From: a virus
Direction: 5' to 3' (one strand)
Virus record (IMG/VR): IMGVR_UViG_3300021425_000109
Coordinates: 1-31,899 of that record
DNA: 31,899 nt
Positions 7,899 through 26,500 of the stretch are shown here, piece by piece; within the stretch, counting starts at the first letter, position 1, and every line of letters starts with the position of its first letter. The position numbers and the translations under genes are program-made. A model generated the notes under the pieces. That model did no database searches, was not told the DNA's origin, and was given only the letters and a program-made list of their open reading frames with translations.

Positions 7899-8291
7899 TT
7901 ATAATTTTGTCAATAAATTTTTAAAAAATTCATACTTTTCTTGCAGATCTATTATGGAATACTTAGCAGATTCTCTAGATTTTATAAGTAGCTCAGTAGC
8001 TTTATCTGTTTTATACTTATCATTTAAAAATAATGCAAATTTATATTGTTCACCTCCTCTAAAAGTATTGCACCCAGAACATTGGAGATTTACATTCTCC
8101 TCATCCCATCTTGTTGAGTAATGTCTCCTACTCATAAAATGCCCTGCATGTCCTTCTTTGTAATGTATCCTTTTAGCACATGTACAACATAGTCCATAAC
8201 CTTTAGAATCAGTATCTCTTTTTCTAATATATTCACTAAATACTCTGTCTAGTTTCTTTATTAAAGTCTTTCTTGATGGTTTTTTTGGCAT
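7899..8291 (-). CDS. ninG: NinG/Rap-like recombination nuclease
   Basis: The protein resembles lambda NinG (Rap), which acts on branched recombination intermediates. A zinc-finger/HNH-like core is visible: CCTC (C35/C38), HAGHFMSRRHYSTRW (48-62), then LQCSGCNTFRGG (69-80) with C71/C74. The length (130 aa from the ATG at 8291) is shorter than lambda NinG because it is essentially the core domain. A longer reading from TTG at 8297 adds only two residues; the ATG with its A-rich context is preferred. It stands alone between two AT-rich gaps. Confidence 0.85.
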   Translation of the reverse strand: MPKKPSRKTLIKKLDRVFSEYIRKRDTDSKGYGLCCTCAKRIHYKEGHAGHFMSRRHYSTRWDEENVNLQCSGCNTFRGGEQYKFALFLNDKYKTDKATELLIKSRESAKYSIIDLQEKYEFFKNLLTKL

Positions 8292-8297
8292 ACTCAA

Positions 8298-8426: not shown

Positions 8427-8549
8427 TTATAACCAATAAGGAAAAGGTAGACTATTCATTTCAAAGAGTTGTTTAGTTTGTTTATGACTTCCATCACAAT
8501 AACCATTTCTATCTCTAGTCTTACCACATTGACATTTATTTCTCTCCAT
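8427..8549 (-). CDS. CDGSH-type iron-sulfur microprotein, 40 aa
   Basis: This gene reads from an ATG at 8549 to a TAA at 8427. Residues 6-22 are CQCGKTRDRNGYCDGSH, with the three Cys and one His that in CDGSH proteins (mitoNEET/CISD family) hold a 2Fe-2S cluster. Compared with the consensus CxCx2(S/T)x3PxCDG(S/A/T)H, there is one extra residue in the loop and the Pro is absent. The rest is a short tail ending LPFPYWL. The start overlaps the holin stop (TAATG), showing coupling to the lysis genes. It may be a redox or metal-binding peptide; role unknown. Confidence 0.75.
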   Translation of the reverse strand: MERNKCQCGKTRDRNGYCDGSHKQTKQLFEMNSLPFPYWL

Positions 8550-9432: not shown

Positions 9433-9531
9433 TTACATTTTAATTTTACTTAACCACTTATTCCAAGCAGCTGCTACTTTGTTGTTAAAGTTTTCTAATT
9501 TGTTTGCTAAGTATCTTAATATTCTAACCAT
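9433..9531 (-). CDS. Small basic amphipathic peptide, 32 aa
   Basis: This short gene reads from an ATG at 9531 to a TAA at 9433. The peptide is helical and basic with spaced hydrophobics (MVRILRYLANKLENFNNKVA, then AAWNKWLSKIKM). It begins one base after the stop of the 50-aa membrane protein and ends four bases before the endolysin start, so it is part of the lysis cassette chain. Amphipathic peptides at this site could assist membrane disruption; that is inference and no family is recognised. Confidence 0.5.
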   Translation of the reverse strand: MVRILRYLANKLENFNNKVAAAWNKWLSKIKM

Positions 9532-9532
9532 A

Positions 9533-9685
9533 TTATTTCTTTTTTTGAGTGTTTAGTAATTGATTAATTTTTATTATTGTATATATTAAAGTTGCTATAA
9601 TTAAAAGTCCTTGCAAACCTTCATTAATTTCTGCTATTGTGATTATGTATACAAATACTCCTAAAAATGTTGGTTCCCAATTCAT
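9533..9685 (-). CDS. Small membrane protein in lysis cassette, 50 aa
   Basis: This gene reads from an ATG at 9685 to a TAA at 9533. Two hydrophobic stretches (FLGVFVYIITIAEI at about 7-20 and LQGLLIIATLIYTIIKI at about 24-40) are separated by a short NEG turn, followed by a basic tail ending QKKK. This helical-hairpin topology is typical of small class II-like holins or antiholins. It lies upstream of the endolysin and 13 bases after the fibre gene. With the 139-aa holin candidate downstream of the endolysin, the phage may carry a holin/antiholin pair. Confidence 0.6.
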   Translation of the reverse strand: MNWEPTFLGVFVYIITIAEINEGLQGLLIIATLIYTIIKINQLLNTQKKK

Positions 9686-19905: not shown

Positions 19906-21099
19906 CTATGATCTTATTGGTACACAATTAGGAACTCTCTTTCCATTTTTAATTTTAAAGCCATACATCTCATATCCTGATTGACATGGCTCTTTAAGTT
20001 GGTGTTGAAAACAAGGCATAAACCACTCTTTTCCATCTAACTCATGCATGTGTACACCTTCACATCCTATATTTTTAGCCATCTCCTCAGCTTTTTCTTG
20101 AGAGGAGTATGCTAATCTATCATCAATTATTGCAAAGTCATCATCAACTACAATAGTCTCAAGCTCTAACTCTCCTAATTCTCTTAGTTTGTTTCTGCTC
20201 CATCCTAATGCTGCTAACCCACCCCACAATAGGTATGATATATTAGCACATGCCTCTGAATCATTCTCATTCTTTCTGTACTGATCTTCTGCTCTTGACA
20301 GATAGCTGTACATTCTTTTTATTGTTGCAACAGTTATATTCTTTTTTTGTGCAAGTTGTTGAGCTCTAATCTTACCAACATCAGTTGCACATCTGTTGTT
20401 TATCTTTTCATTTAGCTCTATTCCTTTTTTAGCATTATTAGCAACACCATCAGGATAGTCATTAAAGCTCTCTAAAGCCACTTCTTTTTCATTTATAGCA
20501 CTTTCTATCTCTGATAACAGAAACTCTGCCTCAGCAGCCTCTAATTGGCTTAGAAAGTCATCTATAGCTTCTTTTGGTCTTTCAGATTTGTCTGCAAAAT
20601 AACCTTCTATTGAAAAACCTTTAACAGCTCCATTTTTTACATAGTCTTGCCATACTTCATCACTATCTACTCTGATAGCACCCATCCATGTACCTAGTGG
20701 AACTTCTTTAGTATTCTCATATAGCCTACTCTTATCATGTACTGCATCTTCTACTATCCATGATTCAACAAGAGTTAATCCTTTTAGACTGTATTGGTGT
20801 TCTAGTGATGCATTACCTTGATTACCTTGTTTTAAATACATTTGACTAGCTTTCTCTACTGTATCTCTAGAGAAGTAGATATAGTAATCTTCATCATCAC
20901 CATTTCTTAGAATAGGTTTGTTAGGAATTAGAATAGGTCCAAGTAATAGTCTTTTCTCTTTAGAAACCTCTGCTAGTTTAACCTCTTGATCTTTAAGTGC
21001 TACAAAGTTGCTTTGTATTGCAGGATTCTCCACAATAGATATAGCATCTACTCCATTGAACTCTAAATCCTCATCTAATATTAATTCTACAATCTTCAT
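19906..21099 (-). CDS. Prohead maturation protease (XkdF-like) with extra domains
   Basis: This 397-aa protein has an N-terminal serine-protease domain typical of XkdF-like prohead proteases: DAISIVENPAIQSNF (18-32), NASLEHQYSLKG with H101, and VKGFSIEGYF with S163 as the catalytic pair, about residues 1-170. A middle domain (ANNAKKGIELNEKINNRC, TVATIKRMYSYLSRAEDQ, ISYLLWGGLAALGW) is shared with many phage head proteins. A short Cys-containing end (CQSGYEMYGFKI) follows. It would trim scaffold and coat during maturation. Its position ahead of scaffold and capsid fits. Confidence 0.8.
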   Translation of the reverse strand: MKIVELILDEDLEFNGVDAISIVENPAIQSNFVALKDQEVKLAEVSKEKRLLLGPILIPNKPILRNGDDEDYYIYFSRDTVEKASQMYLKQGNQGNASLEHQYSLKGLTLVESWIVEDAVHDKSRLYENTKEVPLGTWMGAIRVDSDEVWQDYVKNGAVKGFSIEGYFADKSERPKEAIDDFLSQLEAAEAEFLLSEIESAINEKEVALESFNDYPDGVANNAKKGIELNEKINNRCATDVGKIRAQQLAQKKNITVATIKRMYSYLSRAEDQYRKNENDSEACANISYLLWGGLAALGWSRNKLRELGELELETIVVDDDFAIIDDRLAYSSQEKAEEMAKNIGCEGVHMHELDGKEWFMPCFQHQLKEPCQSGYEMYGFKIKNGKRVPNCVPIRS

Positions 21100-22930: not shown

Positions 22931-23548
22931 TTATATAATGCTTAATTGATTAGAATTTAATTTTTTTTGATATTCTTTATAATCATCAGATCCATTCCAG
23001 TTATTCTCTCTCCACCATGATGTTATAATGTATTTTGTACCTTGAAGCACCTCATCACCTGAGTGTAATTTGTAATGATCAGGTTTACCATTGTGTAAAT
23101 TATGCCAAACAACAGCTTTATAAGCCTCAGGTTGTATTGTTCTTCTAAGATGTTTAAAACTAGTAGTACCACCTTTAAAATCATCATTTAGATACAGCAT
23201 AAAAGTGTAAGTTCTGTTACCTGATGCTAAACAGTTCATGTCATAATGCTCACCTACAAAGTAATCAGGATGCTCATTAAAGTATTGACCTTTTTCATAT
23301 CTCTGCCCTTGCAACACTTCTCCTTTATTAACTGGCACACCTAAGTATTTAGCTATTCTTTGATGTATTCTTTTAATTGTTGGATTCTTAGAATCTAATG
23401 TTGCACTATAAGATGTCCTTGCATTGTCATATTTATTGTACTGTTTGCCATTTCCTGCTACAGTTGATTTATGTGCAAACTTATCTATTAAGTATATTAG
23501 GTGATTTGCCTCTATTTTATCTATAAAATTTCTTACTTCTTTAATCAT
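22931..23548 (-). CDS. 2-oxoglutarate/Fe(II) oxygenase, prolyl 4-hydroxylase-like
   Basis: This 205-aa enzyme retains all P4H-family ligands: RYEKGQYFNEHPDYF gives H93-x-D95, YTFMLYLNDDFKGGTTSF is the core strand, and DHYKLHSGDEVLQGTKYIIT gives H162 for iron and K172 for 2-oxoglutarate. It would hydroxylate a protein (or other) substrate. The start at 23548 is preferred: it lies 7 bases after the stop of the 1557-aa tail gene, whereas an upstream ATG at 23653 would run 98 bases into that gene and add an unrelated hydrophobic leader. Its placement inside the tail operon hints at a virion substrate. Confidence 0.85.
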   Translation of the reverse strand: MIKEVRNFIDKIEANHLIYLIDKFAHKSTVAGNGKQYNKYDNARTSYSATLDSKNPTIKRIHQRIAKYLGVPVNKGEVLQGQRYEKGQYFNEHPDYFVGEHYDMNCLASGNRTYTFMLYLNDDFKGGTTSFKHLRRTIQPEAYKAVVWHNLHNGKPDHYKLHSGDEVLQGTKYIITSWWRENNWNGSDDYKEYQKKLNSNQLSII

Positions 23549-23555
23549 TCTCTTT

Positions 23556-26500
23556 TTATTGTGTTTGACAGCTATTAGTATAAGGTCCTTGTAAATTAGT
23601 TGTAGACCAGTAGTAATAATCTCCTGTAGGAGTATCAGTAAAGTATCTAGCAACTGACAATGGAGTAGTACAAGATGAATCTGTATAGATAGTAGTTGCT
23701 TGATCTATTGTATTTGCATCCATATATACAGTTCTTGTACTTACTTGATTACATAAATCAGGAGCTGTTGATGCATAGTACAATGATTGACTTCCACAAA
23801 TTGGTGTTGGTGGTGGAGTAGGAGGTGTTGGTGGTGTTGGTGCATTTTCATTACACTCAATACAGTTTTCACCTGCTGTAGTTGCTGTTGAAAATATTGT
23901 AAAATTAGTTATATCTTGTGGATTAACAGCACTTTCAACATTAGTAACCCATCTATAACAAGAATATCCTGTTGAACTTCCACTTTGTAATACCCACCAT
24001 GTAGATATTTGTTGTGTTTGACTAACAACATAAACTACTTCACCTGCTGGATCATCACAACTTATAAATTGTGCATAATATGGTCCACTTGGAGTAGGAG
24101 GTGGAGGAGGTGGAGGAGAAGTTGGACAACTTGTAAATGAAGTTGCACTCATAACTCCTGCATTAAGTCCTGATGTTACTAAACCTACAACCTCATATGT
24201 TGTACCTGCTACATCCTCAACTATATCTCCAGTTTGAAATGTGATTTGTGTGTTATCCTGTTGTGATATATATCCTGTAGTACCATCATCACACTTTTGT
24301 AGTGAATAATAGTTTACAACTGGAGGTGGTGTTGGACATCCAGTAGAACCTGTATCTGTTACAGTACCAATATTAGCTCCTGTTTCAACTTGACCTACTA
24401 CTATATAAAACACTCCATTTGAATCTTGTACTCTAGTACCATTAGGATCATTCTCTACTAGATTTGGAAGTTGCAAAGTTGTGTTTCCACTTCTATAACC
24501 ACCTTGAAGTGTACCACATTGTTTTAAAGACCAGTATACTGGACATGCTGTTAGTGTAGACTTTGTAACACTTCCAACAGTTGTACCTGATTGTGATGTA
24601 CCAATAACTTCAAAAATTTGACTAGGTGTTGCTGTTTCAAAGACATAATCTCCAACTGCTAATGTGTTTAATTGATCTGTTGTTTGAGCTGATATATAAC
24701 CACTATTGTTTGTTGAACATTGTCTCAATTCCCAATAATATGGTGCAGTAGGTGGAATAGTTGTAGGACATCCAGTTGCATTTAAACTAACTACTGATAT
24801 AATACCACCAGTATATTGTGTTGGATCTGATGTTTGACCTACAACAATATAAACAACACCATCAGGACCTTGTACTCTTGATCCATTTGTAGGATCTTCT
24901 GTCATACCTGTTAATTCAGCAGTTGTTTGTTCTGAAACAAAACCACCTTGTGAAGTAGTACATTTATATAACAACCAATAAAATGTAGTAGGAGTTACAG
25001 GTGCAGATGGACATCCTGTACTTCCTAAATCAACTAGTGCTGCTACTATAGCATTTGTGTTTGTTGTTGTGCCAATTACTGTATAAATGAAACCATTGGC
25101 ATCTTGAACTCTAGATCCATTTACACCATTAGAATCTATTGTTAATTCTATTTGATCTGTAGTTTCAGGTGATATATATCCCTCTTGATTGTTTTCACAA
25201 AGTTTTAATAAATATCTTTCAGGTTCAGGAGTTGAGCCTCCACATGTACAGCTTGACAAAGCACCTATGTTTATTGTACCTGATGTGTTACTTGTAGATG
25301 CTACATAATAACATGTTGAGTTGTATGTTCTTTCTGTTCCTGCTAAGTTAGATTGACTTGCATATCCATAATGTTGAATTGAACTTGTATTTGAACAATC
25401 ATTTAAAGTATAATAATATACAGGACAATTACATGTAGATAAACTGCTTACATCAATAGTTCCAGTTTGATTTGATGATGCTATATTGTAACATGTATTA
25501 TTATATGTTCTGCTACCAGTTAGTCCTTGAGTACCACTATATCCATAAAGTACAGTTCCTGTTCCATCACATTTTGTCAAACTATAGTAGTAAGTAGTTG
25601 GACCTGATGTACAGTTATAAGCTGTTGGAGTTACTGCTGTAACACTTACTGCTGTAACAGTTGTACCACCTACTTGTGTACTAGCTGTTGTATTACTATT
25701 TGTAACTACATATGTTACATTACTTCCATCTTCTACCTTTTGTGTAATAGCATATGTTGGATTCCCTACATCTGATGATGTTCTAAATGTTTGAAGATTG
25801 TCTGAACACCTTTTTAAACCATAATAATTAGTTGGAGGTGTAGTTGTTTGTGGACACCCTGTAAATCCTGTATCAGATACTGCTACTTGTGTGTATGTGT
25901 TTGGCACAACATTACCAACAACAATATAATATGTGCTAGATGCATCTACAACCCTCCTATTGTTTGATAAATTTAAAGTTGCAAGAGTTGCAGTTGATTC
26001 AAAATTGTTTGAATTTACACAATCTTGCAGATGCAGTACATTAGTTTGTACTGGATTACCTGTTTGACCTTCTTCTTCTCCTCCTGTATCTGTAGATGTG
26101 CTTGGAGATAAGTCTACTGTTTGATTTAATAGTTCTAAATTACTAACACCTGATAGTAAGTTTGTTGTAATACTGTTTATTTTGTATTCTTCACTATTAA
26201 TTATAATTGTGTCTGCAAGAGTAAAGTTGTGAATAAACTTTTTAGGCAGTCTTGCATCTACTTTTGTAAGTCTTTTTGATCTGTTAAATATAGATTGTAT
26301 GTAAAATCTATAGTATTTTTCAAATAATGTATCTGTAAAACCTATTGTGTTAGTAAACTCATTTATTTCTGCATTAAAATGTATGTTTTCTTTGTTTATT
26401 GTTGAATCAATACTAACAGAATTACTAGGCATCCAAAAATCAGCAATATCATTAATACCACCTGTACCTGTTTTCTGTTCTAAGAACCTTATTGTGTTTG

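Follow-up and report, generated by a model that had tools for sequence, protein, structure and literature searches.

The DNA considered here, referred to as the window, is the whole 31,899-nucleotide stretch of the IMG/VR virus record IMGVR_UViG_3300021425_000109. On its minus strand lie, in order of transcription, an M15_3 endolysin, a holin, a microprotein with a CDGSH-type motif and then a NinG-like gene (Table 1), the latter being the next gene downstream of the microprotein in an order repeated at locus L121. The endolysin and holin genes overlap by 104 nt, and the A of the microprotein ATG, at 8549, doubles as the final base of the holin's stop (a 1-nt overlap, TAATG), so that the 40-codon gene overlapping the holin stop, as described in an earlier sequence-only reading, is indeed present. 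The same reading had noted CxC...CDGSH with all four cluster-ligand positions, and these are found at C6, C8, C18 and H22. That reading had named no strand; the plus-strand frame across 8427-8549 is non-coding. Neither a terminator nor a convincing promoter was found around the microprotein gene, and neither a transmembrane segment nor a lipobox is evident in its product. Two further minus-strand ORFs before the endolysin, one at 9433-9531 for a basic, amphipathic-looking peptide of 32 aa and one at 9533-9685 for 50 aa with a hydrophobic segment, are possible lysis-region genes. Nonlabens phages P12024S/L are relatives of the window phage, with 40% identity in the portal, and from this kinship its host is probably a marine flavobacterium. 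Phage P12024S has the endolysin-holin pair and no CDGSH gene.

Table 1. The microprotein gene, its parts and its neighbours in the window
Feature	Coordinates	Strand	Details
9-loop CDGSH microprotein, 40 aa, CxCx9CDGSH + LPFPYWL tail	8427..8549	minus	MERNKCQCGKTRDRNGYCDGSHKQTKQLFEMNSLPFPYWL
17-codon metal motif (putative), C-Q-C-G-K-T-R-D-R-N-G-Y-C-D-G-S-H	8484..8534	minus	within the window ORF
C-terminal extension ending LPFPYWL	8427..8469	minus	confined to the window subfamily
Holin, 139 aa	8549..8968	minus	phrog_3427 holin, E 6.6e-15; 38% identity to the annotated holin of Nonlabens phage P12024S
Endolysin, Peptidase_M15_3, 187 aa	8865..9428	minus	PF08291, E 2.9e-16; phrog_894 endolysin, E 5.4e-34
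NinG-like HNH nuclease	7899..8297	minus	PF05766, E 6.7e-13; phrog_5034, E 1.7e-24

When IMG/VR loci were collected through the holin alone, with the motif playing no part, 11 of 35 holin relatives had the same small gene after the holin with its ligands intact; looking for the gene after holins in related phages was a check suggested with the sequence-only reading. A second set of 16 contigs, collected with a DNA pattern that covered nothing but the C-terminal tail, has intact CxC...CDGSH in all 16. Altogether 18 distinct phage homologues, some of them from near-duplicate contigs, occupy the same genomic position and retain every Cys/His ligand together with an LPFP(Y/H/F) tail; the earlier proposal had been made to hang on Cys/His conservation in homologues, and it survives that test. 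The three Cys, the His, G9, G16, D19, G20, S21 and F29 are invariant in 15 aligned homologues, as are L34, P35, F36 and P37 of the tail, and pN/pS over the motif codons of the 18 is 0.35. In most of the 18 the start overlaps the holin stop (TAATG or TGATG), while a group beginning MKEETKK has a short gap and no overlap. Searches of INPHARED by tblastn with the peptides gave marginal or no matches, queries this short being nearly blind there. The ORF is a real conserved gene with a Cys3His site under selection, and not a chance occurrence.

The published CDGSH consensus is PhiCXCXX(S/T)XXXP-Phi-CDG(S/T/A)H, with an 8-residue loop (PMC3174974). The window ORF has the four ligands, C-x-C...C-x3-H within CDG(S/T/A)H, and, as had been pointed out, it has one extra loop residue (9 rather than 8 between C8 and C18) with Gly16 at the position of the consensus Pro. 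The hydrophobic residue that opens the CISD pattern is K5 in the window ORF (it is hydrophobic in about 10% of 9-loop proteins), and the N-strand for the CISD beta-sandwich is missing from the 9-loop family. The profile check suggested with the sequence-only reading did not place the window ORF in the Pfam family, PF09360 scoring it at 13.3 bits where the curated cut-off is 29.5; the nearest PDB sequences are CDGSH proteins (3tbn/3tbm/6avj). For the lid-proline P motif (GP-Phi-X-Phi) there is no room upstream of the window motif, and the LPFPY downstream is without the Gly. LPFPY as a mitoNEET-like lid-proline motif found no support in the AlphaFold2 (AF2) model built with 54 relatives, which has no strand there. 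That model is of low confidence (pLDDT 65, and 76 over residues 11-20), with a helix right after CDGSH; one from 15 homologues was uninformative. Foldseek with the low-confidence model gave as its only PDB matches 7yvz, 7p0p and 6avj, all NEET proteins, at E 6-9, and VIA-align gave Z < 2. Together these results are a hint of a CDGSH-like loop and not a proof of one.

Strict CISD membership is not claimed, since the window ORF departs from the CISD pattern in its loop spacing, in the Pro and in the hydrophobic residue of the N-strand, and scores below the Pfam threshold. With the CISD/NEET proteins (PF09360; mitoNEET, MiNT and bacterial types 3-7) the 9-loop proteins have in common the CxC...CDGSH ligand set, the Ser/Thr after the second Cys and, in most cases, a third Cys preceded by an aromatic or hydrophobic residue. 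They differ in the longer loop and its Gly, in having neither N-strand nor clear P motif, in being mostly 22-45 aa long and below the Pfam cut-off, and in that their cluster is putative. Of the proposed minimal phage version of a PF09360 protein, the CDGSH-type site stands, while the family assignment gives way to a separate 9-loop/Gly family in which most CISD dimer-building residues are missing. The window protein probably binds metal.

The extent of this family was gauged with a pattern scan for the 9-residue loop, which gave at least 119 viral matches, mostly to proteins of 22-45 aa, with a median of 6 residues before the motif and, in most members, about 4 after it. A few of the listed viral matches look like chance, and in some the motif is fused to another phage protein, such as an XkdF-type protease or, in one case, WYL_2. 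With loop length left free in the pattern and distinct viral motifs counted, Gly occupies position -2 in 79 of 85 9-loop motifs and none of the 85 has Pro there, whereas all 72 distinct 8-loop motifs do. Ser/Thr at the third position after the second Cys, T11 in the window ORF, is present in 82 of the 85. As judged by these motifs, loop length separates the two groups cleanly. The 9-loop members do not reach the PF09360 cut-off and had no significant match in NCBIfam or PHROGs, while one 8-loop example passes PF09360 at 31.9 bits. On this sequence comparison the window protein is a member of a separate 9-loop/Gly family, found in phages and cells, that Pfam, NCBIfam and PHROGs do not recognise. 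Long phage proteins may also carry the 9-loop motif at their C-terminus (L089, L105, L112, L115, L169 and L174, L numbers denoting loci); those of L089 and L105 were verified as XkdF-type serine proteases, and the window's own XkdF protein (19906-21099) is without the motif. In other viruses (L303, L313, L329, L335, L098 and L066) a CDGSH motif stands behind a similar N-terminal domain, which in L098 is WYL_2 (Sm-like SH3).

A coupling of the CDGSH-type site to holin and endolysin genes had been proposed for the window, and it turns out to be broader, recurring in several types of lysis module. Linkage was counted at 83 viral loci, taken from the matches listed, whose 9-loop gene is short, and M15 was located there by six-frame HMM search; the counts that follow are of loci and not of independent events, because contigs are related and the scans list only some matches. 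M15 is present in 48 of the 83, within 500 bp in 44 of those (median 173 bp), and a phrog_3427-type holin likewise in 48, no more than 1 kb away in 43. At 62 of the 83 loci some lysis or lysis-associated gene lies within 1 kb, a count that takes in B2 and C1, two unannotated small membrane proteins regarded as lysis genes by position only; at 19 of the 83, no lysis gene of the kinds tested was found within 1.5 kb. Arrangements vary (B2-CDGSH-C1-M15-holin, M15-holin-CDGSH, holin-CDGSH, CDGSH-M15 and others), and at six loci the gene follows a holin with no M15 detected nearby (L065, L077, L096, L106, L151, L164). In a dereplicated test, with the gene placed randomly within each locus and one locus taken per M15 cluster, 13 of 17 M15 clusters had it within 500 bp (2.87 expected). 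Enrichment by cluster was not seen for a membrane-bound upstream gene (6/21 versus 25%).

Searches that made no use of the motif agree. Starting from B2, 44 of 61 loci carry the CDGSH gene, with ligands intact in all 44 and a loop that is always 9; starting from M15, 23 of 66 carry it, each time on the same strand and within 1 kb, and no CDGSH gene farther than 1 kb from M15 was found in those 66. The gene is absent from 17 of the 61 and 43 of the 66, and since close relatives do without it, it is accessory. The tested lysis genes were found beside viral 8-loop genes at 0 of 88 loci, an imperfect control in that the 8-loop viruses probably infect other hosts, and beside cellular 9-loop genes at 0 of 108 loci among the matches listed. 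The viral 8-loop microproteins are likewise short and virus-encoded, with the opposite features: loop 8, Pro and neither M15 nor holin genes of the kinds tested beside them. The 9-loop gene recurs as a same-strand accessory in phage lysis modules of several types. A small gene adjoining or overlapping the holin is familiar from holin-endolysin cassettes with antiholins or spanins; unlike these, the CDGSH microprotein has a (putative) metal site and no membrane or lipoprotein signal is evident in it. As to the two membrane proteins, B2 (L070:1458-1868 and relatives; 134-142 aa, hydrophobic N-terminal segments, a charged coiled-coil-like C-terminus, no Pfam match) lies, in many marine phages, ahead of the CDGSH gene and the M15 endolysin and is possibly holin-like, and C1 (L074, L075, L114, L117, L167; about 55-65 aa, with DKDGIPD after a single hydrophobic segment) recurs in the same modules. 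Two B2 loci (in the range L426-L505) have CDSSH in place of CDGSH with ligands intact.

Cells also have the gene. A genome scan gave at least 120 cellular 9-loop matches, those listed including near-identical proteins of 25-35 aa in marine Flavobacteriaceae/Polaribacter and in Paenibacillus/Brevibacillus; in a sample of one family, 7 of 149 genomes matched. Opitutae/Verrucomicrobiota have tandem 9-loop CDGSH proteins (L195, L207, L232, L233, L235, L248, L252, L263), and 3 of 5 searched genomes carrying 9-loop genes have separate canonical PF09360 proteins as well. Among the matches listed, 59 of 118 cellular loci have a YceI gene directly upstream on the same strand (marine Flavobacteriia), 16 of 118 a flavin reductase downstream, and nearby regulators are of MarR (19) or HxlR (11) type, with representative neighbours verified by Pfam; one Bacillales locus reads MarR-CDGSH-Flavodoxin_2. 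These surroundings suggest a redox role for the cellular microprotein. With mitoNEET and flavin reductase, electrons pass from FMNH2 to O2 or ubiquinone (PMC9490426), a precedent that would make such a role coherent. The Flavobacteriia microproteins have the motif, spacing and typical length of the phage ones; they differ from the window type in being chromosomal, in their YceI/flavin-reductase/MarR-HxlR surroundings and in that no LPFPY tail was seen. The phage gene likely derives from cells, although the sequences are too short for a tree to resolve this.

These strands are best drawn together, with a confidence falling a little short of even, by a host-derived, metal-binding 9-loop redox microprotein, probably of [2Fe-2S] type and from a family common to marine Flavobacteriia and some Bacillales, that was recruited as a lysis accessory. 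Its three Cys and one His would ligate a metal centre. The likeliest is a labile [2Fe-2S] cluster, which might sit in a dimer or on a partner. The cellular protein may transfer electrons as a small partner of flavin reductase and of quinone/isoprenoid chemistry. In phage, with its synthesis tied to that of the holin, it would work late in infection, at the inner membrane or close to it, and shift the redox or energy state of the membrane or cell and with it the time or completeness of lysis; it would be helpful yet dispensable. Against this reading weigh the CISD dimer features missing from the family, the low-confidence structural match and the 19 viral loci where no tested lysis gene was found nearby. 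The cellular neighbours, YceI and flavin reductase, favour redox chemistry; they do not prove the phage role. A sensor of redox state at lysis, as once proposed, is possible. The fuller version is quite doubtful: that marine Bacteroidota phages have repeatedly placed a host-type redox microprotein in lysis modules, where redox or energy state feeds into holin triggering, giving a lysis clock gated by redox, with a minimal CDGSH site of structurally new type at its core.

A rather unlikely alternative, still to be taken seriously, is that the protein helps the infected cell to maintain its flavin/quinone or iron/ROS balance during late infection and owes its place in the lysis operon only to the late expression of that operon, with no action on lysis. 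The YceI, flavin reductase and stress-type regulators beside cellular copies would suit it, as would the coming and going of the gene among close relatives; however, the repeated tight linkage to holin or M15 in differing arrangements exceeds the needs of late expression, and the start-stop overlap in the window subfamily also tells against it. Improbable is a holin partner, antiholin or adaptor, in which the metal would serve for folding only and the holin would be bound by the LPFPY tail or by residues flanking the motif. Though the 1-nt overlap in most window-type relatives and the invariant LPFP are what such a partner might show, most family members have only about 4 residues after the motif and adjoin unrelated small membrane proteins. 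A peptide of 25-40 aa with Cys3His could hold Zn and might supply metal to the M15 endolysin or restrain it, M15_3 enzymes being zinc peptidases and M15 the gene most often found beside the microprotein; the six holin loci where M15 went undetected and the cellular copies with no M15 neighbour make this improbable too. That the ORF is chance or decaying can hardly be credited, short as it is and missing from many B2 and M15 loci, given the ligands retained in all motif-independent homologues, the purifying selection and the same-strand linkage.

The comparison delimits a family of CDGSH-type microproteins overlooked by profile databases and sets it in two contexts, YceI and flavin reductase in cells and lysis modules in phages. 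It raises the testable possibility that in some phages lysis is linked to the redox chemistry of the host. In the open-access literature searched, no CDGSH protein in phages was reported. To our knowledge, a 9-loop protein of about 25 residues would rank with the smallest natural Fe-S proteins, provided that it binds a cluster. Elsewhere in the window, the minus-strand ORF at 22931-23653 resembles, by eye, a 2OG-Fe(II) oxygenase of prolyl-hydroxylase type.
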